A stretch of DNA of 64,000 nucleotides from Pandoraea communis (GTDB taxonomy: Bacteria > Pseudomonadota > Gammaproteobacteria > Burkholderiales > Burkholderiaceae), in the NCBI RefSeq assembly GCF_902459745.1, contig NZ_CABPSJ010000002.1:496001-560000 (forward strand), read 5' to 3'. Made by a program: the position numbers and the translations under genes. The notes below the pieces were generated by a model that saw only the letters and a list, made by a program, of their open reading frames with translations, did not search any database and was not told where the DNA came from. Within the stretch, counting starts at the first letter, position 1, and every line of letters starts with the position of its first letter. Positions 29,506-54,991 of this stretch are shown in pieces.

Positions 29506-29595
29506 GGAGGCGTGCCAGAGTGGTTTAATGGACTGGTCTTGAAAACCAGCGAAGGGGTAACCCTTCCGTGAGTTCGAATCTCACCGCCTCCGCCA
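29506..29595 (+). tRNA. tRNA-Ser (UGA)
   Basis: A 90-nt class II tRNA. The acceptor stem GGAGGCG pairs with CGCCTCC (29506-29512 with 29585-29591), then discriminator G and an encoded CCA end. The anticodon loop CTTGAAA (anticodon TGA) sits on the stem CTGGT/ACCAG. The variable arm contains GAAGGGGTAACCCTTC and the T loop is TTCGAAT. Its 3' half is the integration target for the downstream island, and further copies of that end lie at 37600-37658 and 54922-54936. Confidence 0.97.
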
Positions 29596-29596
29596 G
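29538..29596 (+). repeat. Attachment core copy 1 (3' part of tRNA-Ser)
   Basis: The 59 bp from the anticodon loop to one base beyond the CCA end of the tRNA are identical to 37600-37658, marking the left attachment site of the island. The following 55 bp (29597-29651) match the flank of copy 3 at 54937-54991 without gaps. Confidence 0.92.
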
Positions 29597-29791
29597 TTTT
29601 CTTAGGTTTTCCCGATAGTAGCTACTGACTTTTGTGAGCGGTGCTCCGCAATTATTTTGGGAGTGCTCCGCAAAACGCGCTGCATTTCGCCCCCCCCTCG
29701 CCGGCTCTCATGCGCAACCGTTCCAAGGAATTGGACCACAAGCCGGTCTAGCAGCATACAGAGTTCCGAAGCCCCCCCTCCCAGTTACAAA

Positions 29792-31477
29792 CTACGCCCT
29801 AGCGAGGTCGAAGAGGTGTTTGCTCATTGATGGATTCTTAAAGAGCACGGCGAGAAATTTACCGCTGTAGTGCTTTTCGATCCCAGCGACGAGCTTCTCA
29901 TACACGTCCTCGCAGATCACCTCAAGCTCTGGAACGGCAAGTTTTGAACCAAAGTCTCCGATCGGCTGCATCAGCTTATCAACTCCGTAACGGCTAAACA
30001 CCGCTGCGGACAAAATCCTATTACCGTGAATCAGTGCCCCCCATGCAGGACCGCTTCGCTTCTGAACACTGCCCTTCTTCCTCTCAATCCATTTCTCAAT
30101 AATGCGATTCATGAAAACTGCGTTGAATGCTTTGGCACCACTTACACTTGGATTGAAAATCGTCTTATAAGGTGCCTTCGATAAATCCGCAAAAAACCTA
30201 CCGATCCCCGTCTTGACTTGAACCGCGAGATTTGCGTCACCTGCTGCACATGCAAGAGCGGTTGTCACCTCCACCAACTCGCATGCTGCAGTTACCGAAG
30301 CCGCTTCATCAGATCTAACAAACTGATAATCAATCCCTTCAATCGCCATTTCCTGGCGCAACCTTTTCTGCTCAGGATCTTGCGCAACGAAGTCGCGCGG
30401 CTCGACTCGATTTTGCAGGTTATTTGTGCGAGTAACTTCGTTTCCAAATCCATCCGGCGCTCCCTTTAAGAGAATGACCCGAATTGGGACACGAACATTC
30501 CCCAACTTCGTGTCATCTTCCACTTTGGCAAGTGAACTGACAGTCTGCGCACCATTCACGATCGACGCACCTTTCAACGAGAAAACCCCAGCAGCTCGTG
30601 ACGCGGCTCCAGCAGGCGCCTTCAATGCCTCATTAGCGACCAACGTTATTCCGTTATTAAAGTACCAGAACTTTTCCGGAGCAGACGAAGCCGTCTGTTT
30701 GATTTCGTTATTGACATCGGTACTACCCAAGGAGTGCCGTATATTAAGTGACACAAGCCCCTTTCCATGAGTCCTCCACCACTCTTTCAATTGCAGGCCG
30801 TCAACTAGTCCAAAATATGCCGGATACGGCGTTGCGATGTAAGACCACTCAAGAATTGTCGACTCCAACGATACGTTATTGTGAGAAATATCATTTGCCA
30901 GGCCACCATATACTTCGCTAAGCCCTACGATTTGACTAGTCGCGATCGCATCGGGATCTTCACCATTCAGATCTTTCAATATCGCAGCGATTACCCCTGC
31001 CCCATGCTTTGCAAGCTCACTTGCGCCCGTAGACACTACGACCAAGTGGATTGAGGTCCCTGGATTGCTAAGCCTCAGAGCAATATCAGCGAATTTTGAG
31101 TGAAGCCGCGGGTGAAATCCTGTATCGTCCTGCTCCACCAAATCACGTACGCCCTTCGTAAATGCCCCCAAATCTTTAGCCTCTGGCTCTCCAGCCCCCT
31201 TGTTGATCCACTTCGATTGCACCAGCACGACCCGCAGATCTGATGGATCGAAATATGCTGCGTCGATACCATTGTCATCCGCCCCATCCCAAACCGACTC
31301 CGCCGCCTCCTTTTCCGAGCAACCAGTCTGCAGATAGATAGCGAGAGCGGCAAGGCAGCGACTTAGAATCTTTTGATCACGTTCGGAGTCATTCACTCCA
31401 ACATCATTAAGATCAAGATGAGGCTCAAACATCGCTCTGATCTTCGATTTTATCTGGCTAACTTTCAAAGACGACAT
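29792..31477 (-). CDS. AIPR-family abortive-infection protein with nuclease-like N-terminus
   Basis: A 561-residue protein of the AIPR (abortive infection phage resistance) family. The C-terminal two-thirds contain the AIPR motifs FWYFNNGITLVA, IVNGAQTVSSLAK and RTNNLQNRVEPRDFVAQD. The N-terminal region resembles a PD-(D/E)xK nuclease of the Mrr type: DGADDNGIDAAYFD followed by VVLVQSKW gives Asp72 and Gln87-x-Lys89, plus acidic residues near 57-60. The ATG at 31477 (MSSLKVSQIKSKI) was chosen because the 23 residues upstream look non-coding. It is a single gene without a visible partner, the first cargo after the tRNA. Phage defence by nucleic-acid cleavage is inferred. Confidence 0.85.
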   Translation of the reverse strand: MSSLKVSQIKSKIRAMFEPHLDLNDVGVNDSERDQKILSRCLAALAIYLQTGCSEKEAAESVWDGADDNGIDAAYFDPSDLRVVLVQSKWINKGAGEPEAKDLGAFTKGVRDLVEQDDTGFHPRLHSKFADIALRLSNPGTSIHLVVVSTGASELAKHGAGVIAAILKDLNGEDPDAIATSQIVGLSEVYGGLANDISHNNVSLESTILEWSYIATPYPAYFGLVDGLQLKEWWRTHGKGLVSLNIRHSLGSTDVNNEIKQTASSAPEKFWYFNNGITLVANEALKAPAGAASRAAGVFSLKGASIVNGAQTVSSLAKVEDDTKLGNVRVPIRVILLKGAPDGFGNEVTRTNNLQNRVEPRDFVAQDPEQKRLRQEMAIEGIDYQFVRSDEAASVTAACELVEVTTALACAAGDANLAVQVKTGIGRFFADLSKAPYKTIFNPSVSGAKAFNAVFMNRIIEKWIERKKGSVQKRSGPAWGALIHGNRILSAAVFSRYGVDKLMQPIGDFGSKLAVPELEVICEDVYEKLVAGIEKHYSGKFLAVLFKNPSMSKHLFDLARA

Positions 31478-31622
31478 AATTAGTAACTCGCAGATCAAGG
31501 TAAATTTTGATAATATCATTTCGGCATGGACTACGACACATGACATATATTATTTCAACCACTGTGCGTAGCACCTGACGCCAGACATCTATACCGACTC
31601 GCCCCCGACTCGTTTCGCCCCC

Positions 31623-32692
31623 TCATCTCGTCGGCTCTACTTTTTCGCCACGACGATTACGCATATAGCGCTCCGTCGTCGTGACACAGGAATGCCCTAA
31701 TTGCTTTTGCGCAGCCCGGATATCCCCCATATCTTCAGCTTTGTCCGTTCCTGCTTTCGCCCGAAGATCACGAAATTGGTACTTTTTCGGCTCAAAGAGC
31801 CCAGCTGCTTGACGAGCCTCAACAAACATTGATTGAATTGACTTGAGGCCAACCCGTCGCCCGCGCTCATTGACAACCAAGAAGAAACTGCGAGGGTTAT
31901 GGTCGATCTTTTGGTGTGCAATCCTGGCAAGGAGCGCCTTAAGTCTTCCCGACACGCTGATTCGCAGTTTAACTTTTGTCTTCTTCTGCCGGATTATCAG
32001 ACAACCATCTGAAATGTCGCACTCGCTCATCTGGAGGACATCAGATGGACGCTGGCCAGTTAAGTACGCCAAGTCCATTGCGTCGCGCAAAGGCTGGCGA
32101 GCGTATTTGTGAATAAGGCGATATTCGTCATCCTCGATGTACACGTCTCTTGGACGCTCCCGATATCCCTTGATGCCTGCGCACGGGTTCGGCTGATCGG
32201 TGTAGCCCCATTCTCTAGCCTTGTTCCAGATGTGCGAGAACAGGGCCTTCTCTCGATTCGCACGCACCTGCCCTTCCGTACCTTTGACTTCCTTTCCGCC
32301 AGCGCGCAGGGCGTCTACAGTGCTCCGCACACGCCAGTCCAAATACTGGCGGATATTGATCGGCTTGATCTCGTCAAGTGGAGCTGGCGGGTCGTCAAAG
32401 AAGGCATAGAGCTTCGCAAGCATCAGCCGGTCACCCTCACGGGTACTCAACGCCTTCGTCGGCAGAACCTCGCGGACATACCGTTCTGCTACGTAGCGAA
32501 ACGTCATCAGCCGACGGTGAATCGGCTTCGCGTCAGCTTCCAACTCGGTCCATTTGCGAACAGCTTGTACGAAGTCCGGGCCTAACGGGATTTGCCGCCA
32601 GCGTCGTAGTAGTAGAAGACCCGGCCGCTTCTCTGCCTCCGTGCCCGCATTCCCTTCGGCAGGTTCAGATTCACACTCGGCCTAGGCCCCAT
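31623..32692 (-). pseudogene. Tyrosine integrase of the island, frameshifted near the N-terminus
   Basis: A tyrosine recombinase read in two frames. The N-terminal 36 residues start at ATG 32692 (MGPRPSVNLNLPKGM... through SGRVFYYYDAGGKSR) and meet a stop at 32582-32584. The rest resumes in another frame from about 32590 (IPLGPDFVQAVRKWTELEADAKP) and stays open to 31623. Catalytic motifs are present in the long part: YLTGQRPSDVL (Arg I), FRDLRAKAGTDKA (box II), LGHSCVTTTERYMRN (His/Tyr). The intact gene would be about 350 residues. A loss of roughly a dozen bases between short A-runs near 32592 would explain the break. A 306-residue product from a TTG at 32543 is possible but would lack the N-terminal arm-binding part. 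Confidence 0.85.
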
Positions 32693-32853
32693 GCCCGCCC
32701 TCCAGCACACGGGGTAGCCGCCCCGACCAGGAGCGGGCTTTCACGCGACTCCAATTGCTTACACTTGCCGACGCGGCGAATGGTCGGGCGACGGTCTTCC
32801 GCTCGCGAAAATGACGCCTGTGCTACACTACAAAGTGATCGTCACCAGATTTA

Positions 32854-32910: not shown

Positions 32911-33327
32911 ATGAGCCTGCGAGACAAACTGAAAACATCGCTCCGTAAGCGGAAAGCGGATGTCTTTCTGCGGGCCGACTTCGCGCAAATGGGAAGCGAG
33001 GCACAACTTAGCCGCGCGCTGCGGGAGCTGGTTGGCGACGGCACGATCGTCAAATTAGGCGTCGGGGTGTACGCCAAGGCCAAACCTAGTGTCCTGTCCG
33101 GCAAACCAATCCCCGTGCGTCCGGTCGAAGTCCTGGCACCGCAGGCGCTCAGGAGGCTTGGCGTTAGGACATACCCGAGCAGAATGGTCGCCGCCTACAA
33201 CGCTGGTGACACCACTCAGTTGCCAACGAGTGTTGTCATCAATACGGGGAACCGCCGCATCGCCCGCAAGCTCGGGTTTGGCCGGCAAATCATTCGATAT
33301 GAAAATAATTTCCAAGGATCAACGTGA
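32911..33327 (+). CDS. AbiEi-like antitoxin of a type IV toxin-antitoxin system (DUF6088)
   Basis: A 138-residue antitoxin. An N-terminal winged helix (DVFLRADFAQMGSEAQLSRALRELVGDGTIVKLGVGVYAKAK) is followed by the DUF6088-type domain (RPVEVLAPQALRRLGVRTYPS, VINTGNRRIARKLGFGRQIIRYEN). AbiEi proteins repress their operon and counter the nucleotidyltransferase toxin without binding it. A good ribosome site (AAGGAGAG) precedes the ATG. Its 3' end overlaps the toxin gene by 29 bp. Confidence 0.88.
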   Translation: MSLRDKLKTSLRKRKADVFLRADFAQMGSEAQLSRALRELVGDGTIVKLGVGVYAKAKPSVLSGKPIPVRPVEVLAPQALRRLGVRTYPSRMVAAYNAGDTTQLPTSVVINTGNRRIARKLGFGRQIIRYENNFQGST

Positions 33328-34273
33328 TCTCATCGACGCGTTGATCATAGAGCAGGATCTTGATGGCATTTCCGCCGCAATTCTAGAGAAAGACATTCAC
33401 GTCAGCGACGCGCTCCGCGCCCTGGCGTCTATAGAACACGAAAGCTTACAGTTGGTATTCTGCGGCGGCACGAGTCTCTCAAAGGCGCATCGCATCATCA
33501 AAAGAATGTCGGAAGACATTGATCTGAAGGTAGTGCTTGCGCCGAACCACGGGTTTTCGCAAAACCAACTGAAGAGTCATCTATCTGCTCTCAAACGCAA
33601 GATCGCTGACTGCATGATCGGACTCGGATTTTCTGAAATCCCCGAAGAGATGGTGGCACGCAACGCGAACGGATTTTTTGCTAGCGGTTGGCATTACAAC
33701 CCCCAATACGCGGCTGCCACAAGTCTGCGCCCGCATTTGAAGCTCGAATTCACGACTCGCACGCCCTACTTCGCAACGTCACAGCAAACGCTTGGCTATT
33801 TGGCCTACCAGTTGGCAACCCAAGACGCGACGCCTTTCACGATGCAATGTGTAGCCGTGGAGGAAACCCTGGGGGAAAAGGTACTCTCGTTCCTTCGCCG
33901 TTTCGCCGAACATCGTGCCGGCGTGCGGGACAACTGGGATGACGCGTTGGTCCGCCATATCTACGATACCTGGTGCATCGTGGCGGCAGACGGAACTGCG
34001 GTTGAGCGGGCAACCAAGCATTTCAAAGACCTGGTCGCTTTTGATCAAGGCGAATTTACTCGACACGCTGCATTTTGCGCGAATCCGGCCGAGTGTCTGA
34101 GCCAAGCCCTGGAAACGGTCGGCCAGGATAAGCAGACCATTGATGAGTATGCAACCAAGCTGGTCCCGTTGATCTACGGCGACGACCGGCCGTCGTTTGA
34201 CGCTGCATTTGGTGTGTTCAGGACCGCAGCGCAAACACTGCTCAGCACATTGCCGGCCGTCAAACGCACCTAA
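33299..34273 (+). CDS. AbiEii-like nucleotidyltransferase toxin
   Basis: A 324-residue AbiEii/AbiGii-family toxin. The nucleotidyltransferase core FCGGTSLSKAH (residues 55-64) and MSEDIDLKV (Asp73/Asp75) supply the GSx...DxD-type active site. Related toxins transfer nucleotides to tRNA acceptor ends and halt translation during phage infection. The start MKIISKDQRDLIDALII overlaps the antitoxin by 29 bp. A terminator follows 37 bp after the stop. The pair is intact and expected to be functional. Confidence 0.9.
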   Translation: MKIISKDQRDLIDALIIEQDLDGISAAILEKDIHVSDALRALASIEHESLQLVFCGGTSLSKAHRIIKRMSEDIDLKVVLAPNHGFSQNQLKSHLSALKRKIADCMIGLGFSEIPEEMVARNANGFFASGWHYNPQYAAATSLRPHLKLEFTTRTPYFATSQQTLGYLAYQLATQDATPFTMQCVAVEETLGEKVLSFLRRFAEHRAGVRDNWDDALVRHIYDTWCIVAADGTAVERATKHFKDLVAFDQGEFTRHAAFCANPAECLSQALETVGQDKQTIDEYATKLVPLIYGDDRPSFDAAFGVFRTAAQTLLSTLPAVKRT

Positions 34274-34682: not shown

Positions 34683-35444
34683 TCAGACGCCGGTCGGCGG
34701 CGGACGATAGTCGGGGTGGCCCTCGGTGCGCTCACCACGAGCTGACGCCCAGAAGTACTTTGCATGGTGCTCGTAGACTTCCGTTGCCTCCGACAGATCG
34801 TAGGCCATGCCCAAAACGACACTCAACAGCAGCCGCATGATTTTGAGGTTGTCTTGGTAGAAGGTCTCAATCTCGTCGTCGGTGGCCCAAACAGGTAGCG
34901 CACCCTCCTCCTGATGCAGCGCTGCCGTATGCGATTCCGTGGGCCCAACCGGGGCTCTGGGCAATTGCCGATGGGCTAGATGCTGGTGGCGAAGCATTTT
35001 AAGCTTCTCTAGGACCTCGAAGCTGGCGCCGTTCGCACTGTATTTGCCGATCAATTCCAGTATCTCATCGCGCCTTGGCGTCAGCGTGTTTCTCATCGCG
35101 TCGGGAGCGAACTTAGAACTGAGGCCGAAGCGCCTAGCACGTTCTTGAACCAGTTCTTCGAACAATTTTTTGTTCTGTAGGCGATCGGCGATCAGGCTCA
35201 TTCGCACAGCCTGTTTGTTGGTGTCCCACACACGTGTCAGCGCCAATAACAGTTCACGACGCAGCGACAAGCGAATGATTTGGAAGGCGTGCGCCGCATA
35301 GGACGTCCCTATTCGTGCTTGGAGCGCGCCGTCATATGCTGCGGGTTTCCAAGTCTCATGGAACATAACCGACAGTTCGATCTCCTGTCGGGCGGTGTCG
35401 ACGATTCGTTTCAATTCTTCGATTTCTGATCGGGTATCGTCCAT
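34683..35444 (-). CDS. AbiU2-like HEPN domain protein
   Basis: A 253-residue, mostly helical protein. The segment LEKLKMLRHQHLAHRQLPRAP (residues about 148-168) carries an R-x4-6-H motif of the HEPN ribonuclease fold as found in AbiU2-type abortive-infection proteins. SYAAHAFQIIRLSLRRELLLALTRVWDT is the other conserved AbiU2 helix. HEPN proteins of this kind cleave RNA when activated. It is alone on the minus strand, between AbiE and a second HEPN-like gene, with no obvious antitoxin partner. Confidence 0.7.
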   Translation of the reverse strand: MDDTRSEIEELKRIVDTARQEIELSVMFHETWKPAAYDGALQARIGTSYAAHAFQIIRLSLRRELLLALTRVWDTNKQAVRMSLIADRLQNKKLFEELVQERARRFGLSSKFAPDAMRNTLTPRRDEILELIGKYSANGASFEVLEKLKMLRHQHLAHRQLPRAPVGPTESHTAALHQEEGALPVWATDDEIETFYQDNLKIMRLLLSVVLGMAYDLSEATEVYEHHAKYFWASARGERTEGHPDYRPPPTGV

Positions 35445-36858: not shown

Positions 36859-37203
36859 TCATCGCACCAAATGCCGATGCTCCGCAATGAACTGCCGCAG
36901 CGCCGCATCGATTCTCGTCTGCCAACCGCTACCAGACGCCTTGAAGTACGCAACGACCTCCGGCGACAGCCGAATGTTAATTCGCTCCTTCGTCACCTCG
37001 GCCTTGGGTCGACCGCGAGGCTTGAGCAGTTTCTCGGCAGCCTCTTCGCCAACAATCCCCGGCAACACGTCACTCGCAGGCCGCGCCCTGGCGAAGTCCC
37101 TCTTCGTCCATTCGGGATTCTGCGAATCCTGACGCATTTGCCTTTTGATCTTGGCATCCTCAGCCGGTGTAGGGAGGACGGTTCCCGGCTTAAGTTTGGG
37201 CAT
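36859..37203 (-). CDS. brnA: BrnA-family antitoxin
   Basis: A 114-residue antitoxin. The C-terminal half is the BrnA ribbon-helix-helix region (KERINIRLSPEVVAYFKASGSGWQTRIDAALRQFI), which binds DNA and neutralises BrnT. The N-terminal half (KLKPGTVLPTPAEDAKIKRQM) is a typical longer BrnA extension. Its start lies inside the 3' end of the preceding brnT frame, with a 14-bp overlap. Confidence 0.9.
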   Translation of the reverse strand: MPKLKPGTVLPTPAEDAKIKRQMRQDSQNPEWTKRDFARARPASDVLPGIVGEEAAEKLLKPRGRPKAEVTKERINIRLSPEVVAYFKASGSGWQTRIDAALRQFIAEHRHLVR

Positions 37204-37381
37204 AGCGTTTCACCTCTCGCGGATTCGCCTTGCGCAAGCTGACGACGTGTATTTTTTCTGCGCGAGGCATGAAGGCCACCGCGCTGTCCCATTCGAAGTC
37301 CTGGGCCATCGTGAACGGCAAACCCCGTTCCTGCACATTCCGGTCACTTTTCGCCGGGTCGAAACTGATATCCATGGGCAT
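37190..37381 (-). pseudogene. brnT: BrnT toxin with internal in-frame deletion
   Basis: A 63-residue frame whose two ends match BrnT: the N-terminus MDISFDPAKSDRNVQERGLPFTMAQDFEWDSAV and the C-terminus AEKIHVVSLRKANPREVKRY. BrnT toxins are normally about 90-95 residues, and the central beta-strands expected between FEWDSAV and the EKIHVVSLRKAN helix are missing. The deletion keeps the frame and leaves brnA intact. BrnT is a RelE-fold ribonuclease; without the core sheet it is probably inactive, though it might still bind BrnA. Confidence 0.75.
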
Positions 37382-37520
37382 TTATTGTACTCACAAAAAT
37401 TCTCGCCCATCAACTATTTTTTGTGGCGACAATAAATCAGGAAGTTTCCCGACCGCACGCCTCCAAATCCCTCCAACTTTTGCTCCGCAACCCGTTTTCC
37501 ACCCCCAGTAAACACGCGGG

Positions 37521-37785
37521 TTTCCGGCATTTCACGTCCTCCCGTTTTCGAAGCAAAACCTCCCCTAACCCCTTCCTCCACAACGATTTCCCAGTAAGAC
37601 TTGAAAACCAGCGAAGGGGTAACCCTTCCGTGAGTTCGAATCTCACCGCCTCCGCCAGAATTCTTTGTTTGCAGTGGTAGTGGCTACTGACCAATGTCAG
37701 TGAGACGCCCCCTCGGCTCCGGATAAGCGCCCCCCCGGATACCCGAACACCTTGAATTAGAAATTTCCGGCATTTCACGCCCTCC
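37521..37785 (+). repeat. 22-bp direct repeats flanking attachment core copy 2
   Basis: The 22-bp sequence TTTCCGGCATTTCACGNCCTCC occurs at 37521-37542 and again at 37764-37785 with one mismatch, 57 bp before and 105 bp after the tRNA-derived core at 37600-37658. The symmetrical placement resembles integrase arm-type sites. No gene is seen between 37382 and 37818. Confidence 0.6.
37600..37658 (+). repeat. Attachment core copy 2 (3' part of tRNA-Ser)
   Basis: 59 bp identical to 29538-29596, covering the anticodon arm, variable arm, T arm and CCA end of tRNA-Ser but lacking the 5' half, so it is not a functional tRNA gene. It marks the right end of the defence island. The next bases keep the GTAGTGGCTACTGAC segment in the same register as copy 1. 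Confidence 0.92.
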
Positions 37786-37818
37786 GGTAAATCTGAAGCG
37801 GTCATTTGCGTTGCCGCA

Positions 37819-38718
37819 TCATATGACTCCTCCCGCCCCCTTCCGCTCGCTTTCCAGCACCGCATCGGCACAAGCCAGAAAGCCCCCGATCAGACGCCCG
37901 CGCGGCGACGCCCGATGCCACAGCACGCCAAATCGACGCGGCTCCGTCTGCACCGGCAGCGAGAGCTTTGCGACATTCAGATGGGTCGTTAGCGGCGAAA
38001 CGATATCCGGCATAAGCGACACACCGAGTCCGCGATCGACCATCATCGCAATCGCCATCAACGAGTTCAGTTCGAACAGTTCGTGCGGCACGATCTTCGC
38101 CGCGCGCAGGTATTGATCCGCCTGCTTGCCACCGCCAAGCGAGCGGTCGTACCGAATGAACGGCTCGCGCGCCAGCAGGTCGTGAGGCGCGTGCGCGGCG
38201 AGACGTGACGGCGCGAGGACGACGAGCGGTTCTTCGCGCAGCAGATGCCAGTTGTACGCCTTCGGCAACGCGAACGCCGGGTGCAGGCAGACAGCGACGT
38301 CCACGTCGCCACGCTGCAGCGCTTCATAGAGTTCCATCGATGTTCCCGCGCGAATCAGCACGTTTGTGTGCGGGAACGATGCCGCAAAACCCGACAAGAC
38401 ATCAGGCACGAGACTCAGCAGTGCGGTCGTAATCGTTCCGATCCGCAATTCGCCCGCTGCTTCGCCTTCCAGCGCAAAAGCCTTCAGCTCCGAGAATTCG
38501 CGCACCAGGCCGCGCGCGCGTTCGATCACCCGATGGCCTGCTTCGGTCGGCGTCACCGTACGCCCCGAGCGCACCAGCAACTCGACACCGAGTTCGCGCT
38601 CCAGCGCCTGAACCTGCTGCGCGACCGCAGCCGGCGTCACTCCGATCCGGCGCGCGGCTTCCGCCATCGAGCCACTATCGACGATCAGTAAAAGATTGGC
38701 CAGAAAGGTGACGTCCAT
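37819..38718 (-). CDS. LysR-family regulator of the CitE/CoA-transferase cluster
   Basis: A 299-residue LysR-type regulator. The N-terminal helix-turn-helix is FLANLLLIVDSGSMAEAARRIGVTPAAVAQQVQALERELGVELLVR; the C-terminal part is the effector-binding domain. It is divergent from the citE-like gene with a 103-bp shared control region, the classic arrangement for regulating that operon. The inducer is probably a metabolite of the pathway below. Confidence 0.9.
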   Translation of the reverse strand: MDVTFLANLLLIVDSGSMAEAARRIGVTPAAVAQQVQALERELGVELLVRSGRTVTPTEAGHRVIERARGLVREFSELKAFALEGEAAGELRIGTITTALLSLVPDVLSGFAASFPHTNVLIRAGTSMELYEALQRGDVDVAVCLHPAFALPKAYNWHLLREEPLVVLAPSRLAAHAPHDLLAREPFIRYDRSLGGGKQADQYLRAAKIVPHELFELNSLMAIAMMVDRGLGVSLMPDIVSPLTTHLNVAKLSLPVQTEPRRFGVLWHRASPRGRLIGGFLACADAVLESERKGAGGVI

Positions 38719-46441: not shown

Positions 46442-47870
46442 ACGCAGCTTTTTGCGCAGTCTGTGGGGCGCAGGCCCCATCTTCGCGATCTTCATCGTGT
46501 CGGTCGTCTCGCTGTTCGCGGTGGTCTACTGGCTCACGATGGGCTACCTCACGGATCTCGTCGACGCCCGGCTGCAACGCGAAAGCAACCAGCTTATCCG
46601 GCGCACGGCGGCCGACGCACGGACCAATATCTCGGAACGCAGCCGTCGCGACGCCGCCAATGTACGCCCCTACGGCCTGTTCACCGCCAGCGGTCAGCGG
46701 CTGGCCGGGAATATCGATGTGCTGCCAAAGGATGTGCCCGACTGGAAAGCCTATCGCTACACGCAGACCGTCGTCGATAAGGAAGGCCAGGCGTGGGCAC
46801 GCCCCTACCGCGCAATGATCGCCACTATGCCCGACGCCAACCGGGTAATCGTCGGGCAGGCCGTCGACGATATCGACCGCTTTGATCATATGCTGGTGCG
46901 CGTCGCCACCGGCGGCCTGCTCGCGACGATTCTGCTCGGCGCCCTGTGTGGATATGCATTGCATCGCGCGGCAAACCAGCGCGTTCGTCAGTTGCGGGAG
47001 TCGTGTCAGGACATCATTTCCAGTCACTTTACGCGCCGTCTTCCGACAAGTGGCCGTCGCGACGACATCGACCTGCTCGTGGGCTTCGTCAACACGATGC
47101 TCGACGACATCGAGCGCCTCGTATCGGAACTACGTGACGTGTGCGCATGGATTGCCCACGATCTGCGAACACCGATGACGAGCCTACGCGCAGGGCTGGA
47201 GCGCGTGCGCCGTGGCGCAACCTCCGTCGGCGATTACGATGCGGCGGTCGAGCGTGCCCTTGAGCAGACCGACCACGTGCTCGATCGCTTCTCAGCCCTG
47301 CTTCGCATCGCTGAAATCGACGCTCACGCCCGCCGGGAGAACTTCCGTCTGGTCGACCTCGCCCGCATTGTCGAAGATGTCGTGGATCTCTATGAGCCGC
47401 TTGCCGAAGCGCGCGCGGTGACGTTGACCGTGCAAACGCAACGCAGCGCTCCCGTGCTTGGCGACAGCGATCTGATCTTCGGCGCGATTCAGAACCTGCT
47501 CGACAACGCATTGAAATTCACCCCGTCGGGTGGCACCGTGCACTTGCGTGTCATGGCAACGCTGCAACACGCCATGGTGGAGGTGTGTGACACCGGTCCG
47601 GGCATTGCCAGCATCGAGCGCGACGCCGTTCTGCGGCCGTTCTATCGTGGCGCGGGCGTAAGCGGCATGCCAACGCCCGGCCACGGATTAGGGCTGAGCG
47701 TCGTCGCGGCAACGGCCCGCATTCATAGCGCCGTCATGCGAATCGACGACGCCCAGCCCGGCTGCCGCGTCGCGTTGCGTTTCGCAGCGGCACCGGCCGC
47801 CCACCCAACATCCGACGCTTCGCCCGCGCCTGCGTGCGAGCCCCACTCGACCGGCATCGCGAGCGCCTGA
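46428..47870 (+). CDS. Membrane sensor histidine kinase
   Basis: A 480-residue kinase with an N-terminal helix (GPIFAIFIVSVVSLFAVVYWL), a periplasmic sensor of about 120 residues, a second helix (VATGGLLATILLGALCGYAL), a HAMP region, HisKA with His244 (AHDLRTPMTSLRAGLERV) and HATPase (NLLDNALKFTPSGG, DTGPGI, GHGLGLSVV). It is translationally coupled to the regulator. The signal is unknown; a phosphate-ester or substrate cue is plausible from context. Confidence 0.95.
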   Translation: MPTTERSFLRSLWGAGPIFAIFIVSVVSLFAVVYWLTMGYLTDLVDARLQRESNQLIRRTAADARTNISERSRRDAANVRPYGLFTASGQRLAGNIDVLPKDVPDWKAYRYTQTVVDKEGQAWARPYRAMIATMPDANRVIVGQAVDDIDRFDHMLVRVATGGLLATILLGALCGYALHRAANQRVRQLRESCQDIISSHFTRRLPTSGRRDDIDLLVGFVNTMLDDIERLVSELRDVCAWIAHDLRTPMTSLRAGLERVRRGATSVGDYDAAVERALEQTDHVLDRFSALLRIAEIDAHARRENFRLVDLARIVEDVVDLYEPLAEARAVTLTVQTQRSAPVLGDSDLIFGAIQNLLDNALKFTPSGGTVHLRVMATLQHAMVEVCDTGPGIASIERDAVLRPFYRGAGVSGMPTPGHGLGLSVVAATARIHSAVMRIDDAQPGCRVALRFAAAPAAHPTSDASPAPACEPHSTGIASA

Positions 47871-47875
47871 CCTGT

Positions 47876-48652
47876 TTATCGCAACGGCGGCAGTCCCAAT
47901 GCTTCGCGCGTCTCGCGCGTCGCCTTGACGAGATCGTCCCGAAACGACGGATTGGCAAGCATGGCAGAGGCAATCACGGTGCCGCTCACCTTGCCGGCCT
48001 CGACATCGCTCACATAGTGCACGCCGCCCAACGCTCGGCCCTGCGCGTAAGCATCGGCGCGGGAGAAAATTTCCGCGCGCTTCTCCGGGACGATCTCGGC
48101 AAGCACCACGGCAGTCAGATAGGCGAACGTCGCGTGTCCGCTCGGGTAGCTCGGTGAAGTGCCTTCAGTGACGATGCCAGGATGCACCTCGGCGCTGACG
48201 TTGTACGGACGCGGACGCTTCCAGTAATCCTTCGCCACCTTGAGCGGGGCAGCGCCCTCCTTCGCCAGACGCTTGAAAAACATCTCCGTGAACGGCAGCC
48301 GATCCGCGCGGAAGCCCGCACCGACAACATCTGCAAAGCGGAACACGCTCTTGTGCGTGTCGCCGTCGGCAAGCGCCAGTTGCGCAGCAGTGCGTGAGTG
48401 TTGCAGCACCAGCACCTGACGCAGATCGTCTGCCTGAGTGACGCTGCCGGGCGCGGGGGGCGGCGCGACAAGCACGGTCAGATCCGGGGCCATCGCGGCC
48501 AGATAGCCGGCGTTAACAACATCGCCCCCGGTTGTGGCATTTACCTCAGGTGCCACAGATGTCGTGGCGCCCACATGCACCGCGTGCAGCGCACAAAGAA
48601 GCAGTGCTGCGGATGCGAAGGCGCGTCTATTGCGCGTTAAGACAGAAAGCAT
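47876..48652 (-). CDS. Secreted class A acid phosphatase (PAP2 superfamily)
   Basis: A 258-residue periplasmic phosphatase. It has a signal peptide (MLSVLTRNRRAFASAALLLC to about residue 30), then the three PAP2 motifs: KDYWKRPRPY, SYPSGHATFAYL and ALGGVHYVSDVEAG. This is the layout of PhoN-type non-specific acid phosphatases, which release phosphate from organic esters. It converges with the kinase gene (5 bp apart) and is divergent from the phosphodiesterase gene. Confidence 0.93.
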   Translation of the reverse strand: MLSVLTRNRRAFASAALLLCALHAVHVGATTSVAPEVNATTGGDVVNAGYLAAMAPDLTVLVAPPPAPGSVTQADDLRQVLVLQHSRTAAQLALADGDTHKSVFRFADVVGAGFRADRLPFTEMFFKRLAKEGAAPLKVAKDYWKRPRPYNVSAEVHPGIVTEGTSPSYPSGHATFAYLTAVVLAEIVPEKRAEIFSRADAYAQGRALGGVHYVSDVEAGKVSGTVIASAMLANPSFRDDLVKATRETREALGLPPLR

Positions 48653-49032
48653 TGGTTCATTCCTTCGGGGATCGAATGGTCGAGTCAGTCATCGCGATCG
48701 ACACAGGAAGGTCGATCGGTTCATGAACGCAAGGAGGCTACGAGCCATCCGTGACTCGGCAAAGGCGCAAACCTTTCCACCCGGACAGGTTCACAAAGCG
48801 CCGCAAGTGCTGCCGCACGCGGCCTGCCTCGCTGGGAGGCCCCCACAGCGATAGCCTCTCCATCAATTTCAAAACGTTTGGCGATACGGTGGCCGAATCC
48901 GGCGTTCATGTTGGCAAGCTTTGCTTCATCTGTGCATCACGGGCGTCCCCTACAGTTCGCCTCGCTGACCACCGGCGAGTACGCCGGTCCATTCAACCGA
49001 GCCCCCTGCGCCGACGAAGCACGATCCCCACA

Positions 49033-50523
49033 ATGCCGACGACTTTTCGCATTACCCCAACTTTGGCGCTCGCTTGCGCCATGCTGGTTCCGGTGGCGGC
49101 GTATGCCGACCACCCCACCCGCCTCTCGCCGGCTGAGCGCGTCCTGCTGATCAGCATTGACGGCATGCACGACCAGGATCTGGCACGCTACGTAGCGTCG
49201 CATCCAGGGTCTGCACTCGCCTCCCTCGCCCGTCACGGCGTGACGTACCGAAACGCACTGACACCCGTGCCGTCCGATTCGTTCCCAGGGATGGTGGCGC
49301 TCGTCAGCGGCGCCAGCCCCGCCACGTCCGGGGTGTACTACGACGACAGCTTCGACCGCAAGCTCGTACCGGCCGGCGAATCCTGCACGACGGCTCGCGG
49401 CCCCGGCGCCGAAGTCGTCTACGACGATTCGATCGATCACGATCCGAAACGCATCGACGGCGGCGGCGCCATCGAAGCCACCCGTTTGCCGCGCGACCCG
49501 GCTCGCCACTGTGCACCGGTCTACCCGCATGACTATATGCGCACGAACACCGTCTTCGAAGTCGTGCGCGCCGCCGGTGGTCGCACCGCCTGGGCAGACA
49601 AACATCTCGCCTACGACTTCGTGCACGGTCCAAGCGGACAAGGGGTCGACGATCTCTATACGCCGGAGATCGCTGCCGTCGGCGAGAAACTCGCCGCCTT
49701 CCCGGCCTACGACAACTTGAAGGTCGACGCGTTGCTCCATCAGATTGAGGGCCGCGACAGCGGTGGCAGCGGGTCGCCGGGCGTACCGCGTTTGTTCGGC
49801 ATGAATTTTCAGCAGTTGAGCGTGGCGCAGAAGTCGGGCGACGGCTACCGCGATGCGCATGCCATGCCGGGAGACGCGATCGGCAAGGCACTTGACCAGA
49901 TCGACGGCTCGCTGCAACGCCTGCTCAGCGCGCTGGCCGCACGTCATCTCGAGACCTCCACGCTTGTCGTGATTGCCGCGAAGCATGGTCAATCGCCGAT
50001 CACGCCAGGACAACTTCGCCGAATCGACGGCAAGCGCGTGCTCGACGTCGTCGCGCAAAGCGCCCCGGGTGCCCTGGCCAAAGCCACGCTCGACGACGTC
50101 GGCTTGCTGTGGCTCAAACAGCCTCGCACGACGCAGACCATCGTCGAGGCGCTGCGAGCCAACGCCAAAGCGCTGGGCATCGAACACGTGTATGCGGGCA
50201 ATGACATGCCGGAGGGCTGGGGGCGCATCGGTCGGGACAGCCGTGTGCCGGATATCGCCATCGAGACGACGTACGGCGTCATTTACACGCACGGCACGAA
50301 GGTCGCCGAGCACGGCGGTTTTCATGACGACGACCGCCACGTCGCGCTGCTGATCTCCCGTCCGGACATTGCAGCACAGGAGGTCGATGCGCCGGTCTCG
50401 ACGCGTCAGGTCGCCCCGACGCTTCTTCAGGCGCTGGCGCTCAAGCCTGGCGCGCTCGACGCCGTGCGCCGCGAAGCCACCGCCCCGCTGCCCGGCATTG
50501 TTTTCCGCACAACGGCCGACTGA
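49033..50523 (+). CDS. Secreted alkaline-phosphatase-superfamily phosphodiesterase
   Basis: A 496-residue type I phosphodiesterase/nucleotide pyrophosphatase-like enzyme. The start at 49033 gives a clean signal peptide (MPTTFRITPTLALACAMLVP then VAAYADH). LLISIDGMHDQDL supplies the first metal aspartate and PVPSDSFPGMVALVSGA the nucleophile region, where serine replaces the more usual threonine. YTHGTKVAEHGGFHDDDRHVALLIS gives the C-terminal metal histidines and aspartate. The 380-bp gap to the divergent phosphatase gene must hold both promoters; no clear box is visible. Confidence 0.88.
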   Translation: MPTTFRITPTLALACAMLVPVAAYADHPTRLSPAERVLLISIDGMHDQDLARYVASHPGSALASLARHGVTYRNALTPVPSDSFPGMVALVSGASPATSGVYYDDSFDRKLVPAGESCTTARGPGAEVVYDDSIDHDPKRIDGGGAIEATRLPRDPARHCAPVYPHDYMRTNTVFEVVRAAGGRTAWADKHLAYDFVHGPSGQGVDDLYTPEIAAVGEKLAAFPAYDNLKVDALLHQIEGRDSGGSGSPGVPRLFGMNFQQLSVAQKSGDGYRDAHAMPGDAIGKALDQIDGSLQRLLSALAARHLETSTLVVIAAKHGQSPITPGQLRRIDGKRVLDVVAQSAPGALAKATLDDVGLLWLKQPRTTQTIVEALRANAKALGIEHVYAGNDMPEGWGRIGRDSRVPDIAIETTYGVIYTHGTKVAEHGGFHDDDRHVALLISRPDIAAQEVDAPVSTRQVAPTLLQALALKPGALDAVRREATAPLPGIVFRTTAD

Positions 50524-50589
50524 GGCGCCGTCGCGCCCCAACACCGACTTATCACGACTCACCACGACTTAACACGATGTATCAGGGCC

Positions 50590-50609
50590 GCCGGCCATCT
50601 TTGGCCGGC
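50590..50609. repeat. Perfect hairpin upstream of the TonB receptor gene
   Basis: GCCGGCCA and TGGCCGGC flank a 4-nt loop, 30 bp before the receptor start and 66 bp after the phosphodiesterase stop. Without a T-run it is more likely an mRNA processing or stability element than a terminator. Confidence 0.5.
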
Positions 50610-50638
50610 ACAACTTCCAAAGAGAACGCACCCAAGCC

Positions 50639-52978
50639 ATGAAACTTCAGACGTTGCGTAACCCGCGCCATGCGCATCCTGCTCGTCCCGTCCGTCTTGC
50701 CTTCGCCCTTAGCGCGCCACACCTGACGCTCACCGCCATCGCGCTAGCGGTGCTGGCAAGCACAGCTCATGCCCAGAGCGCCTCGCCAATCACCGACATT
50801 GGCGATGTCTCCGCCTCCGATATCGGTGCCCCCGTCAACGTCACGGCCACCAAGTCGCGTAAGGCACCGACAGAGGCCGCCGCAAAAGCGCTCACGCAAG
50901 CGCCACTCGAAGCGACTTCGCCGCAAACGCAGATCAGTAGCGACTACATCGCCAATCAGATCAACCCGCAGGCCGACTACGGCACTATTCTGCGCATCGC
51001 GCCGAGCTACAGCAGCTCGTCGCCGAACGGCCTTGGCCTGTCGGAAGCGAAGAACCAGACACTGCGCGGTTTTCCGGACGGGCAGTTCAACGTAACGTAC
51101 GACGGCATTCCGTTTGGCGACACCAACGACTTCTCGCACCATACGACCTCGTACTTCCCGGCGGCGACCATCGGCGGTGTCACCATCGATCGCAGCCCGG
51201 GCAACGCCACAACACTCGGTTACGCAACCTTTGGCGGCTCGGTCAACCTGTTCTCGCCCACGCTCAGCCCGACGCGCAAGATCGAGTACTCGCAAACCAT
51301 CGGCTCGCACGCAACGTGGCAGGAGAACCTCGGCGTGACGACGGGCATCATGCCCGGCCTGCTCGACTCGAACATCTTCCTGAACGTCCAGCGCACCGAC
51401 TCGAACGGCGCGTTGAGCAACAGCGGCTTACGCAACACGAACATCTTCCTCAAAGGCGTAACGCCGATCGGCAGCAGCACGCTCGTGACGTGGGTCTACG
51501 CGTACGACAAGATTCACTTCAATAACCCGGGCGGCGCCACGCTCAACCAGGTGGCCCAGAACGGCTACAACTACGGCCTGAACGGCGACCCGAAGAGCCC
51601 GAACTACTGGGGCTACAACTATCAGGACAAGAACACCGAGTTCGCCTACCTCGACGTCAAACACGACTTCGACAGCGGGTGGAGCCTGAACAACAAGCTC
51701 TACACGTACTACTACTACAACCTGAGCCACGAACTGAACGGCGACAACACGTCGTCGCCACTCTCCGCATTGAGTGCTGCCAAGCCCTTCTCTGCGGGGC
51801 AATCGGGTTCCGACATTGCCGGCGCGCTGAAGCTCAACGAGTACCGAACGTACGGGGACACGCTGAGTGCGACGCACACCGGCACCTACGGCACGTTCAC
51901 GGGCGGCTTCTGGGTCGAGCACACGCGCAATCCGCGCAATCGCTTCGCGTACGACGCCACGACCGGCCAGTCGGTCAAACAGAACGCCACCTACGGCAAC
52001 ACCTACTACGACATGGTCGATGAGGTGAACACCGCTCAGGCGTTCTCGCAGTACGCATGGAAAGCGACAGATGCACTGACCGTCACACCGGGCATCCGCT
52101 ACCAACACTTCGAGCGCTCGTTGTCGGCCAGCGTGTTGCAGAACAACCTGCCCGGGACGTCGGCTAGCAAGTCGTGGAACAGCGTGCTGCCAAGCCTGGA
52201 CGTCAACTATCGCTTCACGTCGCTGTGGTCGGGCTATGCACAGGTCTCGCGCGGCGCGCTCGGGCCGAACCTGAACACGTTGTACTCCGCCAATCCGGCG
52301 GGCAACAACAACGTCAATCCGCAAACGTCGATGGCGTACCAGATCGGCACGGTGTTCAAGGCGGATCGCTTTACGTTCAATGCGGATGCCTACTTCATCG
52401 AGTTCAGCAACTACATCACGAAGAATGGTTCGGGGGCGAACGCCACCTACTTCAACGCCGGCGGCGTGCGCTACACCGGCGTCGAAGCCGAAGGCAACGT
52501 GTTGCTCGGCAGCGGCTTCTCGTTCTACGCGAACGGATCGCTTAACAACGCCACGTACACGCAGGACGGCACGGGCTCGCAGATCTGGAAATCGGGTCAG
52601 CGAATTTCGTTTGTCCCGCAGTACACGGCCGCCATCGCGCTCAATTTCGATCAGGGGCCGTGGCACGCGGGCATCAACACCAAGTTCGTCGGCTCGATGT
52701 ATCAAGGCAGCAACGGGGCGGCTGACGGCTCGATCTACAAGGTCGGCCCGTATAACGTCACAAGCATGATGATCGCGCGCGACTTTACCAACCTCAGCTC
52801 GGTACTCAAGAAGGTTCGCGTGTCGTTCGGCATCGACAACCTGTTTGACACGCATCGCATTACCGACAACCTCGGACCCGCCGCGACCGATACCAGTAAG
52901 GGGACCGACGCGAACCAGTTCCTCTACTACTTCGTGCCGGGCCGCAGCGTCTACGTCAACCTGCGCGCCGAGATCTGA
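50639..52978 (+). CDS. TonB-dependent outer-membrane receptor
   Basis: A 779-residue receptor. The long signal peptide ends near TAHAQS (residue about 47). An N-terminal plug (YGTILRIAPSYSSSSPNG, QTLRGFPDGQFNVTYDGIPFGD, GSVNLFSP) is followed by a 22-strand barrel rich in alternating aromatic residues, ending YFVPGRSVYVNLRAEI. No siderophore synthesis or transport gene is near. Its placement after two secreted phosphatases and before a complete ExbB-ExbD-TonB set suggests import of a phosphate ester or of the product they release. Confidence 0.93.
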   Translation: MKLQTLRNPRHAHPARPVRLAFALSAPHLTLTAIALAVLASTAHAQSASPITDIGDVSASDIGAPVNVTATKSRKAPTEAAAKALTQAPLEATSPQTQISSDYIANQINPQADYGTILRIAPSYSSSSPNGLGLSEAKNQTLRGFPDGQFNVTYDGIPFGDTNDFSHHTTSYFPAATIGGVTIDRSPGNATTLGYATFGGSVNLFSPTLSPTRKIEYSQTIGSHATWQENLGVTTGIMPGLLDSNIFLNVQRTDSNGALSNSGLRNTNIFLKGVTPIGSSTLVTWVYAYDKIHFNNPGGATLNQVAQNGYNYGLNGDPKSPNYWGYNYQDKNTEFAYLDVKHDFDSGWSLNNKLYTYYYYNLSHELNGDNTSSPLSALSAAKPFSAGQSGSDIAGALKLNEYRTYGDTLSATHTGTYGTFTGGFWVEHTRNPRNRFAYDATTGQSVKQNATYGNTYYDMVDEVNTAQAFSQYAWKATDALTVTPGIRYQHFERSLSASVLQNNLPGTSASKSWNSVLPSLDVNYRFTSLWSGYAQVSRGALGPNLNTLYSANPAGNNNVNPQTSMAYQIGTVFKADRFTFNADAYFIEFSNYITKNGSGANATYFNAGGVRYTGVEAEGNVLLGSGFSFYANGSLNNATYTQDGTGSQIWKSGQRISFVPQYTAAIALNFDQGPWHAGINTKFVGSMYQGSNGAADGSIYKVGPYNVTSMMIARDFTNLSSVLKKVRVSFGIDNLFDTHRITDNLGPAATDTSKGTDANQFLYYFVPGRSVYVNLRAEI

Positions 52979-53045
52979 TCGGCACCCCAATCACCGGCCG
53001 CATGATCATGCGGCCGGCGTTCATTTCTGCGGAAGGGAATTTTTC

Positions 53046-53717
53046 ATGAATCTGACTCAATTCAATCAACTGGCGATGTCCTCGGGTGGCACGCTCTATC
53101 TCATGGCGCTGCTGGCATTCGTCGGCATCACGGTGATCGTCGATCGCGGTTTGCGCCTGCGCCGGACGTTCCGCCGCGGCCAGCGCATTGTCGAGGCTGT
53201 GAGCGCACTGCCCGTCGTCGACGTACACGACGCCGACGAATTGCGCGCGGCTGCCGCGGGCTTGCCGCACGGCCATCTGCTAGACACGTACGCACACAAT
53301 CTCAAACGCTCGCACGACGGCGATATGGAAGCCGCCATCGACGAAGCGATCTACCTGGAAGTGCCGGGCATCGATCGCGGCCTGTGGGTGCTCGATACGG
53401 TCATCACCGTTGCGCCGCTGCTGGGCTTGTTCGGCACGATCGTCGGCATGTTCCACGCGTTCGACGTGCTCGGCGCGTCCGGCGGCGATCCCACGCGCGT
53501 GACGTCGGGGGTGGCAGAAGCCCTGATCGCGACCGCATGCGGTCTGGCGATCGCCATGAGCCATTTGTGGTTCTTCAACGGCATGCAAGACACCGTGCGT
53601 CAGACGGTCCATCAAATGGATACGCTCAAGCGTCTGCTGCTCAACCGGCATTACGTTGCGAAGCAGGCCCAGGAGCCGGCGGGTGTGGTGCTGCGTCACG
53701 AACGTGCTTCGGCCTGA
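53046..53717 (+). CDS. exbB: ExbB-like proton channel protein
   Basis: A 223-residue MotA/TolQ/ExbB family protein with three membrane helices (LYLMALLAFVGITVIVDRGL; LDTVITVAPLLGLFGTIVGMF; VAEALIATACGLAIAMSHLWF) and the conserved APLLGLFGTIVGM segment. It forms the proton channel that energises TonB. An AAGGGAA ribosome site precedes the ATG at 53046; longer upstream frames overlap the receptor gene. Confidence 0.95.
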   Translation: MNLTQFNQLAMSSGGTLYLMALLAFVGITVIVDRGLRLRRTFRRGQRIVEAVSALPVVDVHDADELRAAAAGLPHGHLLDTYAHNLKRSHDGDMEAAIDEAIYLEVPGIDRGLWVLDTVITVAPLLGLFGTIVGMFHAFDVLGASGGDPTRVTSGVAEALIATACGLAIAMSHLWFFNGMQDTVRQTVHQMDTLKRLLLNRHYVAKQAQEPAGVVLRHERASA

Positions 53718-53726
53718 GAGTCTGCG

Positions 53727-54119
53727 ATGCGATATTTCGAAACGAAAAAAACCCGCATCGAAGTCGTGCCGATGATCGACATCATGTTCTTCCTGCTGGT
53801 GTTCTTCATCATGATCACGCTCAAAATGATGCCGTCGGTGGGCATGTCGGCCAAGTTGCCGGGAAGCTCGACCGCGCAAGACCTGCCGCACCCCAAAGTG
53901 CTCGTTGCGTTGCATGCGGACGGTAGCGTCGAAGCCGATCACCAACCGGTCACGCTTGACGCCCTGACTGCCAGCCTGCGCGCGCATGACCCTGAGCATA
54001 CGGTGGTCACCATCGCCAGTGAAAAGACCGCCAACGTCCAGCAGTTGACCCGTTTGATGGACGCCTGCCGAACGGCGGGTGTGACGCAGATCGGGATTGC
54101 GACGAAAGAGGCATCATGA
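53727..54119 (+). CDS. exbD: ExbD-like biopolymer transport protein
   Basis: A 130-residue ExbD with the single helix PMIDIMFFLLVFFIMITLKM, whose aspartate is the proton-carrying residue, and a periplasmic domain. It starts 9 bp after exbB and overlaps tonB by 4 bp. Confidence 0.95.
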   Translation: MRYFETKKTRIEVVPMIDIMFFLLVFFIMITLKMMPSVGMSAKLPGSSTAQDLPHPKVLVALHADGSVEADHQPVTLDALTASLRAHDPEHTVVTIASEKTANVQQLTRLMDACRTAGVTQIGIATKEAS

Positions 54120-54865
54120 TGACGATCGACGTGGCCAACGCCCTCCCCTCGCGCAATGCGACGTCCCCGATGACGCCGCACACCGGGCGCTGGCCCTGGC
54201 GGGCCATGGCGGTAGCGTTAGCGGTGGAGGCGATCCTGTTGGGGGTGACGACAGGATGGCTCGCCAGTGGCACGCCGACCCCGCAAACGGTTAGCACCGA
54301 TGCCCCGGTGATGCTATCGATGCTCGTGCCGGAACCGGAAGCGACGCCCACGCCGGCCCCCAAACCCGCCGAGCCTGCCAAGTTGCCTTTACCGCCCCTC
54401 AAGCGCGAAGTCGTACCGAAACCTGACACGTCGCACGTCCGCAAGCCGGCGCAGGTGCCTCGCGCTACAGCAAATGTCGAAGCGCCACCGATCGAGACGG
54501 TGAGCGGTGCGGACGCCCCACCAGCGCCGTCCGCAGCTCCCCCAGCCTTGCCCCCCGCACCGCCAGTAGCCACCAGTTCCGGTCCCGACGAGCGGTTCGT
54601 TGCCAAGTTGCGCGCGGCCGTGCAGGCGGCTGTCGTCTATCCGGCGGCGTTACGGGGAATGGGGCTGGCGGCAAGCATAGACGTCGAGTTCGTCTATATG
54701 GACGGAAGGGTTTCGAACGTACACGTCACCCACCCAGGGCGTGTTGCAACACTCGATGAAGCCGCCATTGCCGCAGTGCAACGGGCCGCGATGCCCTCTG
54801 CGCCGCCGAGTCTGGCGGGGACGCCACATGCGTTCAAAGTGCGTGTCATATTTAGAGAAACGTGA
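54116..54865 (+). CDS. tonB: TonB energy transducer
   Basis: A 249-residue TonB with an N-terminal anchor (WRAMAVALAVEAILLGVTTGWL), a proline/alanine-rich periplasmic spacer (TPTPAPKPAEPAKLPLPPLK) and a C-terminal domain (VYPAALRGMGLAASIDVEFVYMDGRVSNVHV, ALDEAAIAAV-like helix, FKVRVIFRE). It overlaps exbD by 4 bp. It is the last gene before the third tRNA-end repeat at 54922. Confidence 0.93.
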   Translation: MMTIDVANALPSRNATSPMTPHTGRWPWRAMAVALAVEAILLGVTTGWLASGTPTPQTVSTDAPVMLSMLVPEPEATPTPAPKPAEPAKLPLPPLKREVVPKPDTSHVRKPAQVPRATANVEAPPIETVSGADAPPAPSAAPPALPPAPPVATSSGPDERFVAKLRAAVQAAVVYPAALRGMGLAASIDVEFVYMDGRVSNVHVTHPGRVATLDEAAIAAVQRAAMPSAPPSLAGTPHAFKVRVIFRET

Positions 54866-54921
54866 GGCTTGGGGCGTGAGGTCCGATGGCGCACCTGGAT
54901 TGCCTGCGAACCATGGTAAGC

Positions 54922-54991
54922 CACCGCCTCCGCCAGTTTTCCTTGCTCACCCCGGTAGCAGCGACTGACTTTTGCGGACGGTGCTCCGCAA
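54922..54991 (+). repeat. Third copy of the tRNA-Ser end and island flank
   Basis: Positions 54922-54940 match 29582-29600 exactly (CACCGCCTCCGCCAG plus four T). The next bases to 54991 align without gaps to 29601-29651, so that 43 of the 55 positions in the flanks 54937-54991 and 29597-29651 are identical, including TACTGAC-like and GTGCTCCGCAA segments. The 5' part of the core is not retained. It is best read as an old attachment scar or the end of a further related element. Confidence 0.8.

Follow-up and report, generated by a model that had tools for sequence, protein, structure and literature searches.

Tandem tRNA-Ser fragments and a proposed layering of islands between tRNA-Ser(TGA) and acnB in Pandoraea communis

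The 64,000-nucleotide window analyzed here lies on contig NZ_CABPSJ010000002.1 of Pandoraea communis (C2:496001-560000 within the 5.7-Mb genome, G000; other genomes are likewise given G numbers) and contains an intact tRNA-Ser(TGA) gene followed by two displaced copies of its 3' end. The interval between this tRNA and an acnB-like gene is probably an accretion hotspot of the genus Pandoraea in which tyrosine integrases of two or more kinds have been active, with islands layered in the order proposed below. The observations that carry this reading are the repeats themselves, a fixed geometry of island ends, ends that are shared between islands with different cargo, an integrase lying in two frames in the first island, and a large and variable tRNA-acnB interval.

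tRNA-Ser copies and geometry of island ends

A single tRNA, Ser(TGA), was identified in the window by ARAGORN. The 59-bp core at 29538-29596 occurred a second time, exactly, at 37600-37658, and its last 15 bases were repeated at 54922-54936 (copy 3). The copies and the motifs around them were located as follows:

29506..29595, + strand: tRNA-Ser(TGA), target gene, intact (ARAGORN)
29538..29596, + strand: core copy 1, which spans the anticodon loop to the 3' end and bounds island 1 on the left
29642..29673, + strand: two TGCTCCGCAA direct repeats, 22 bp apart (29642 and 29664), presumed arm sites at the left end of island 1
37481..37490, + strand: right-end TGCTCCGCAA at core -163
37600..37658, + strand: core copy 2, right end of island 1
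37659..37691, + strand: relic of a left arm (TAGTGGCTACTGAC, without TGCTCCGCAA)
54922..54936, + strand: short core copy 3, where a short-core island end apparently meets an older left arm
54937..54991, + strand: apparent left arm belonging to an older first-family island, with TGCTCCGCAA at +60

A search of the own genome with 29480-29680 (E<=0.001) returned three matches only, which were the query itself, copy 2 (C2:533600-533691, E 6.9e-27) and copy 3 (C2:550922-550991, E 9.2e-14). The 20-base pattern CACCGCCTCCGCCAGNNTTC at the core end was found three times in the window with 2 mismatches allowed (0/100 shuffles), and TGCTCCGCAA was found five times against 0.36 expected, a number reached by none of 100 shuffles. 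One of the five (36878) fits none of the island-end offsets. A TAGTNNCTACTGAC-like block was present after all three core copies, and TGCTCCGCAA lay at core +60 after copies 1 and 3. A first-pass annotation had proposed three in-register attachment (att) copies at this tRNA-Ser, which is borne out by the repeats, the own-genome search, the shuffle counts and the registers, and its suggestion of successive site-specific insertions is supported as well.

Across the genomes, left ends carried TGCTCCGCAA at +60 and often also at +82, counted from the start of CACCGCCTCCGCCA in the tRNA-oriented sequence, and right ends carried it at exactly -163. These repeats are putative integrase arm sites. Ends were counted over 29 tRNA copies and 16 other core copies at <=1 mismatch in the stretches examined. 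The count leaves out G023, G025 and G029, whose tRNA is more divergent, and the second core-like places of G003, G010 and G017 (more than 1 mismatch or otherwise missed by the pattern), the one in G017 having its +60 site. The +60 site (<=2 mismatches, +57 to +63) followed 14 of the 29 tRNA copies and was absent in the two shortest tRNA-acnB intervals, those of G018 and G015. The -163 site (<=1 mismatch) was present at all nine of the mutually related long-core copies (own copy 2 and those of eight relatives) and at 0/7 shorter core copies, and alignment of the nine right ends left GCTCCGCAA unchanged in 9/9. Three of the shorter copies matched the tRNA over 14 bp (copy 3, one in G008 and one in G019), while others matched over 22 bp in G008 and 33 bp in G009; those at G008 29429 and G011 15688 are probably chance matches. 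Kind 1 refers below to islands with the 59-bp core and these ends, and kind 2 to islands with a P4-type integrase beside the tRNA.

A left-arm subtype with one TGCTCCGCAA only, followed by common sequence with GACGCG, adjoins the tRNA of G026 as well as inner core copies of G008 and G022. It perhaps represents a second island lineage.

Island 1 and its relatives

Island 1 spans 29597-37658 (8062 bp, 53.6% GC). The precise ends at 29596 and 37658 that had been proposed for an 8-kb defence island hold, as the right-end geometry is that of the long-core copies in eight relatives and G008 is without island 1 by direct comparison. Between the ends, the following features were annotated:

29792..31546, - strand: 584-aa abortive infection protein of AIPR/Abi-alpha-like type, on the left side of the integrase
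31623..32704, - strand: tyrosine integrase split over two frames, the body extending to 32597 and the ~40 N-terminal residues (32585-32704) read in a different one
32685..32714, - strand: last 10 codons of a DUF4224 gene
32911..34273, + strand: AbiEi-like regulator (32911-33327) and AbiEii (open reading frame, ORF, 33089-34273), right of the integrase
34683..35444, - strand: AbiU2-type HEPN protein
36859..37336, - strand: right-end module of BrnA antitoxin (36859-37203) and shortened BrnT-like stretch (~37211-37336)

The integrase matched PF00589 (2.1e-19), and its split was seen against the 366-aa integrase of G005. The DUF4224 gene is longer beside the integrase in G005, G022, G011 and G016; when the 75-aa DUF4224 protein of G005 was sought in stretches of ten other genomes, three had a match (G011, G016 and G022). 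Both the integrase gene and the DUF4224 gene are open in P. horticolens LMG 31112. Relative to G005 and G022, ~80 bp of brnT are missing. Island 1 therefore looks grounded, that is, unable to leave by its own means, because its integrase lies in two frames, its DUF4224 gene is nearly gone and its brnT is shortened. Our guess from gene position is that the DUF4224 protein assists excision, and BrnTA may stabilise the island. The AbiEi-like regulator scored slightly below the Pfam cut-off for AbiEi_4 and above that for DUF6088. The ORFs at 35847-36449 and 36453-36791 (200 and 112 aa) had no family match in the libraries tried; the former has a 67% DNA match elsewhere in G017.

Relaxase, coupling-protein and conjugation domains of integrative and conjugative or mobilizable elements were absent from the nine island 1 ORFs run against Pfam, a set that takes in the small ORFs only in part. 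Phage structural, packaging and replication genes were likewise absent from five island 1 stretches run against PHROGs, where named matches were limited to integrase, antitoxin and Abi families and two of the five stretches were without a match. Regarding carriage on plasmids or phages, all 37 plasmid and 106 phage records remained below 60% identity (best listed 52.5 and 38.8%, respectively). A search of the other 31 genus genomes, which scored at most 9 candidates in each, gave no full-length match to island 1. In 14 of these 31 there were partial matches (E<=1e-30) that covered the integrase, AbiE, BrnTA with the right end and, in G017, the 67% piece of the 200-aa ORF.

Pairwise comparison included the seven islands bounded by two long cores and excluded those of G013 and G031, which are split over contigs. 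Out of 8121 bp, island 1 shared 2573 bp with G005, 2429 with G011, 2047 with G022, 1769 with G001 (mostly AbiE), 1097 with G030 and 316 with G007. Leaving AbiE aside, island 1 and its relatives had in common the arms, the integrase, the AbiEi-like gene (shared by island 1, G005 and G011) and BrnTA with the right end. The recognised cargo differed: G005 has HerA, SIR2 and Lamassu proteins, G011 has PD-Lambda-4, and G022 has an EcoRII-like nuclease with a cytosine methylase. The integrase is internal, with genes on both sides, in G000, G005, G022 and G011; recognised defence genes flank it on both sides in G000 only. The complete-looking island of G007 carries three transposase ORFs and has no integrase, BrnA or BrnT match, and G001 and G030 hold 2.3- and 1.8-kb remnants without integrase.

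A second BrnA/right-end piece of the island 1 family was seen in G000 away from the tRNA (C1:43177-43916; L133 8178-8917). It ends in a partial core followed by unrelated sequence.

Outside Pandoraea, integrase relatives with 52-59% identity were found at 12 loci in Candidatus Glomeribacter, Nitrosomonas and a few other metagenome-assembled genomes. No tRNA-Ser was found within the stretches examined at these loci (L114-L125); seven of the 12 had a tRNA gene on the stretch (Leu 4, Lys 2, Asn 1) and five had none.

Middle stretch, copy 3 and the interval up to acnB

To the right of island 1, the stretch up to copy 3 falls into two parts:

37692..45599: metabolic genes, namely LysR regulator, CitE-like lyase, CoA-transferase, amidohydrolase, and short-chain fatty acid and 2HCT transporters
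45600..54921: response regulator/histidine kinase, PAP2, phosphodiesterase, TonB receptor and ExbB/ExbD/TonB

This stretch had been described as one metabolic island differing in base composition from the defence segment. The contrast is real but uneven, since the defence segment stands out at 53.6% GC and the metabolic one does not, with 61.4% at 37.66-45.60 kb and 63.1% at 45.60-54.92 kb against 63.4% in the left flank. The single island itself could not be retained, as the right half (45.6-55.0 kb) occurs alone behind the tRNA in G008 and on the acnB contig in G005. Window 45603-54996 and G008 2412-11790 are 94% identical, the homologue starting ~215 bp behind the tRNA of G008 with a degenerate left arm in between, and 45600-54883 is found at 95% on contig C13 of G005, which also carries acnB. 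The left half (37.7-45.6 kb) is absent from the tRNA-adjacent place in G008, and in the search of the other 31 genus genomes (E<=1e-60, at most 9 candidates scored per genome) none of the listed matches to it was near the tRNA. Diverged pieces of it (67-81%) were listed away from the tRNA in G003, G006, G009, G010, G012, G014, G016, G026, G027, G028 and G031. Judged by these matches, the 17-kb 'metabolic segment' is a composite of two histories with host-like composition (61-63% GC). No integrase domain was found in 14 ORFs tested from 37.8 to 54.9 kb.

At the junction between the metabolic and the two-component/TonB part (45590-45620), an att core is missing, and G008 and G005 share a short flank of more than 100 bp before the segment. 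A clean division of the stretch into two islands at 45.6 kb was rejected for want of a core copy with up to 3 mismatches.

In copy 3 the core is reduced to 14-15 bp, and the preceding 60 bp, which G008 shares, are not tRNA sequence. No -163 site belongs to this copy, but a +60 site follows it. Copy 3 taken with 60 bp on each side has 88% identity to its counterpart in G008; the 9.4 kb in front of that counterpart begin ~215 bp behind the tRNA. A short core followed by a kind-1 left arm also lies ~20 kb from the tRNA in G019, and a P4-type integrase adjoins that tRNA; the integrases beside the tRNA in G019 and G024 have Arm-DNA-bind_3 and Phage_int_M domains. The 'related integrases' proposed for all three copies do not extend to copy 3, whose short core and missing -163 site resemble the far end of the P4-type island in G019; this end probably stems from another integrase class. 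On the simplest reading, a short-core island entered between the tRNA and a pre-existing kind-1 left arm.

DNA around the tRNA was matched in 59 of 61 genomes searched. As core landmark served a protein of 861 aa that relatives encode downstream of this tRNA and that we take, from reading its sequence, to be aconitase B (acnB-like). Of the 32 genus genomes, 19 had the tRNA and the acnB-like gene together on a single contig, 7 had them on different contigs, and 6 gave no acnB-like match at E<=1e-200. The distances were 2.6 kb in G018, 4.6 kb in G015 and 11-60 kb in sixteen others (59.5 kb in G026), and the own interval of 131.8 kb is the largest of the 19. Given this wide spread, the interval is a variable region. 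At a distance of 25 kb from the tRNA, copy 3 is clearly inside it, with the acnB-like core gene ~106 kb further right. Position 54,936 is thus not the end of the islands, as had been assumed, since the sequence after copy 3 is itself an island left arm; a core genome starting at 54.94 kb is ruled out by the position of the acnB-like gene. G024 is no empty site since an integrase adjoins its tRNA, and G018, whose flank resembles that of G024, may likewise retain the end of an old island.

With the window coordinates continued to the right, G005 is for the most part collinear over 108.6-163.5 kb (87-95%) and shares only parts of 54.9-108.6 kb, in partly changed order. The homologues of 54883 and 71712 lie within 67 bp of each other in G005, and that of 62.6-66.0 kb ~11 kb further on. 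The segment border at 54.88 kb is without a core copy. By these alignments, rearrangement or deletion has clearly acted beyond copy 3.

The 16.8 kb after the third arm (54937-71711) have a lower GC content of 57.5%, and G005 is without most of them at the corresponding junction. Among their genes is one of lumazine-binding type with 80% identity to a gene elsewhere in G008.

Order of insertions and rival explanations

In the proposed history, kind-1 integrases would recombine within the anticodon-to-3'-end part of the tRNA gene (the 59-bp core), with an element-borne site (attP) that would carry TGCTCCGCAA arm sites at +60, +82 and -163. Their islands would contain an internal integrase, in some cases a DUF4224 gene, usually a right-end BrnTA, and exchangeable cargo including defence systems. 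Kind-2 islands would have their integrase, with P4-type domains, beside the tRNA, and their far junction would keep a short tRNA 3' piece (14 bp in G019). Every insertion would restore the tRNA and shift older ends rightward, so that the window would read from youngest to oldest. The youngest layer would be island 1 (kind 1, now grounded), followed by the composite stretch at 37.66-54.92 kb with a kind-2-like junction at its end, then by what remains of an older kind-1 island, its bare left arm, and on the oldest side by ~106 kb of mostly accessory DNA up to the core gene.

Several observations weigh against this history. Among the genomes, none was without island 1 and with copy 2 and its right flank, and a precise empty junction at 37658 was accordingly not seen. 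The nine of nine long-core copies with a -163 site are related sequences and not independent trials, and the frameshift in the integrase could be an assembly error. The border at 45.6 kb has no core copy, and among the ORFs tested near copy 3 there was no kind-2 (P4-type) integrase. In G008, the 45.6-55.0 kb segment starts behind a degenerate kind-1 arm and ends in a short core, so its ends do not match; in G005 it adjoins no core copy, and the pieces beyond it are in different order. Core copies from 55 to 161 kb were limited to 3-mismatch matches without the rest of the block.

Part of this evidence would suit the single entry of one large composite element, its inner cores acquired by homologous exchange between similar islands and later trimmed by deletions. 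The borders without core copies at 45.6 and 54.88 kb, the lack of a match between the two ends that the middle segment has in G008, and the differing arrangements in G005 and G008 speak for it, and deletion and rearrangement have therefore shaped the region. Such an entry is nevertheless unlikely, because island 1 has both complete ends, a right end as in eight genomes and a much lower GC content, and because G008 holds the 45.6-kb segment and copy 3 without island 1. The first-pass model of just two islands, one for defence (29.6-37.7 kb) and one metabolic (37.7-54.9 kb), inserted by related integrases with core genome from 54.9 kb, agrees with the three in-register copies and the precise ends of island 1. 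It is very unlikely in view of the acnB-like gene 106 kb past copy 3, the occurrence of 45.6-55.0 kb alone behind the tRNA in G008, the short core of copy 3 without a -163 site, and the absence of the arm that follows copy 3 behind the tRNA in G018 and G015.

Instead of being an island arm, the block after the core could also belong to the tRNA's native flank (a terminator, for instance) and have been copied by imprecise duplications, as 14 of 29 genomes have the +60 site behind the tRNA itself and G008 and G012 show the block in shifted or degenerate form. Even less credence can be given to this, since the other 15 tRNA copies have no site at that offset, and a terminator leaves the same motif at -163 on the far ends unexplained. 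The two shortest intervals, in G018 and G015, led to its rejection. Layered insertion by at least two kinds of integrase thus remains the preferred reading.

Relation to known islands and significance

The mechanism is ordinary site-specific accretion at a tRNA, which is well known, and the window holds a well-preserved case of tandem tRNA islands; the new parts are the Pandoraea island family, the end geometry and the corrected layering. Islands that carry a P4-type integrase and lie at the 3' end of a tRNA gene are a known type. G019 and G024 resemble them in having the integrase beside the tRNA, and copy 3 resembles the far end in G019, although no such integrase gene was among the ORFs tested near copy 3. 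In the account of target sites given for Islander, anticodon-centred (A) and T-stem/junction (J) subsites are distinguished and tandem arrays are known, of which the tabulated ones with three or more members are rare (4) (PMC4383910). Similar to these tandem islands, an intact tRNA stands at one end of the window and displaced 3' tRNA fragments mark successive ends (PMC4383910). Island 1 in itself has the form of an Islander-type island, with an intact tRNA, a displaced 3' fragment in the same orientation, a PF00589 integrase inside and no full-length counterpart among the candidates scored in the related genomes. Across the window, three fragments accompany one integrase, where a tandem array would have an own fragment and an own integrase for each member. 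Unlike the Islander cases, only island 1 keeps an integrase (in two frames), and a one-integrase-one-fragment rule as outlined there would miss the inner members (PMC4383910).

Integrase-only defence islands whose mobility is unclear are described from hotspots of Escherichia coli, 18 of which are at tRNA loci (PMC10121019). Island 1 and its relatives share with them an integrase without other known mobility genes, variable anti-phage cargo and fixed core flanks, and differ in genus and site (PMC10121019). Compared with the E. coli islands as characterized there, those of Pandoraea further have common ends, presumed arm sites, usually a right-end BrnTA, and an integrase that lies inside with genes on both sides (PMC10121019). 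A literature search for Pandoraea with genomic islands, or with defense system and integrase, showed, among the papers listed, none on the tRNA-Ser site by titles and abstract openings.

We lean slightly towards the view that these islands form a so far undescribed Pandoraea family of exchangeable defence cassettes, which competes for one tRNA with P4-type islands and whose alternation with them leaves a readable order of events. The kit of such a cassette would consist of an anticodon-site integrase, a DUF4224 gene, three TGCTCCGCAA arm sites and a right-end BrnTA; the cargo, placed to the left and right of the integrase, would vary by species. Through the fixed end geometry, island ends, even bare relics, can be found from sequence alone. 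The locus yields a precise map of a genus-wide integration hotspot from tRNA-Ser to acnB, where a family of small islands delivers different anti-phage systems via the same ends.

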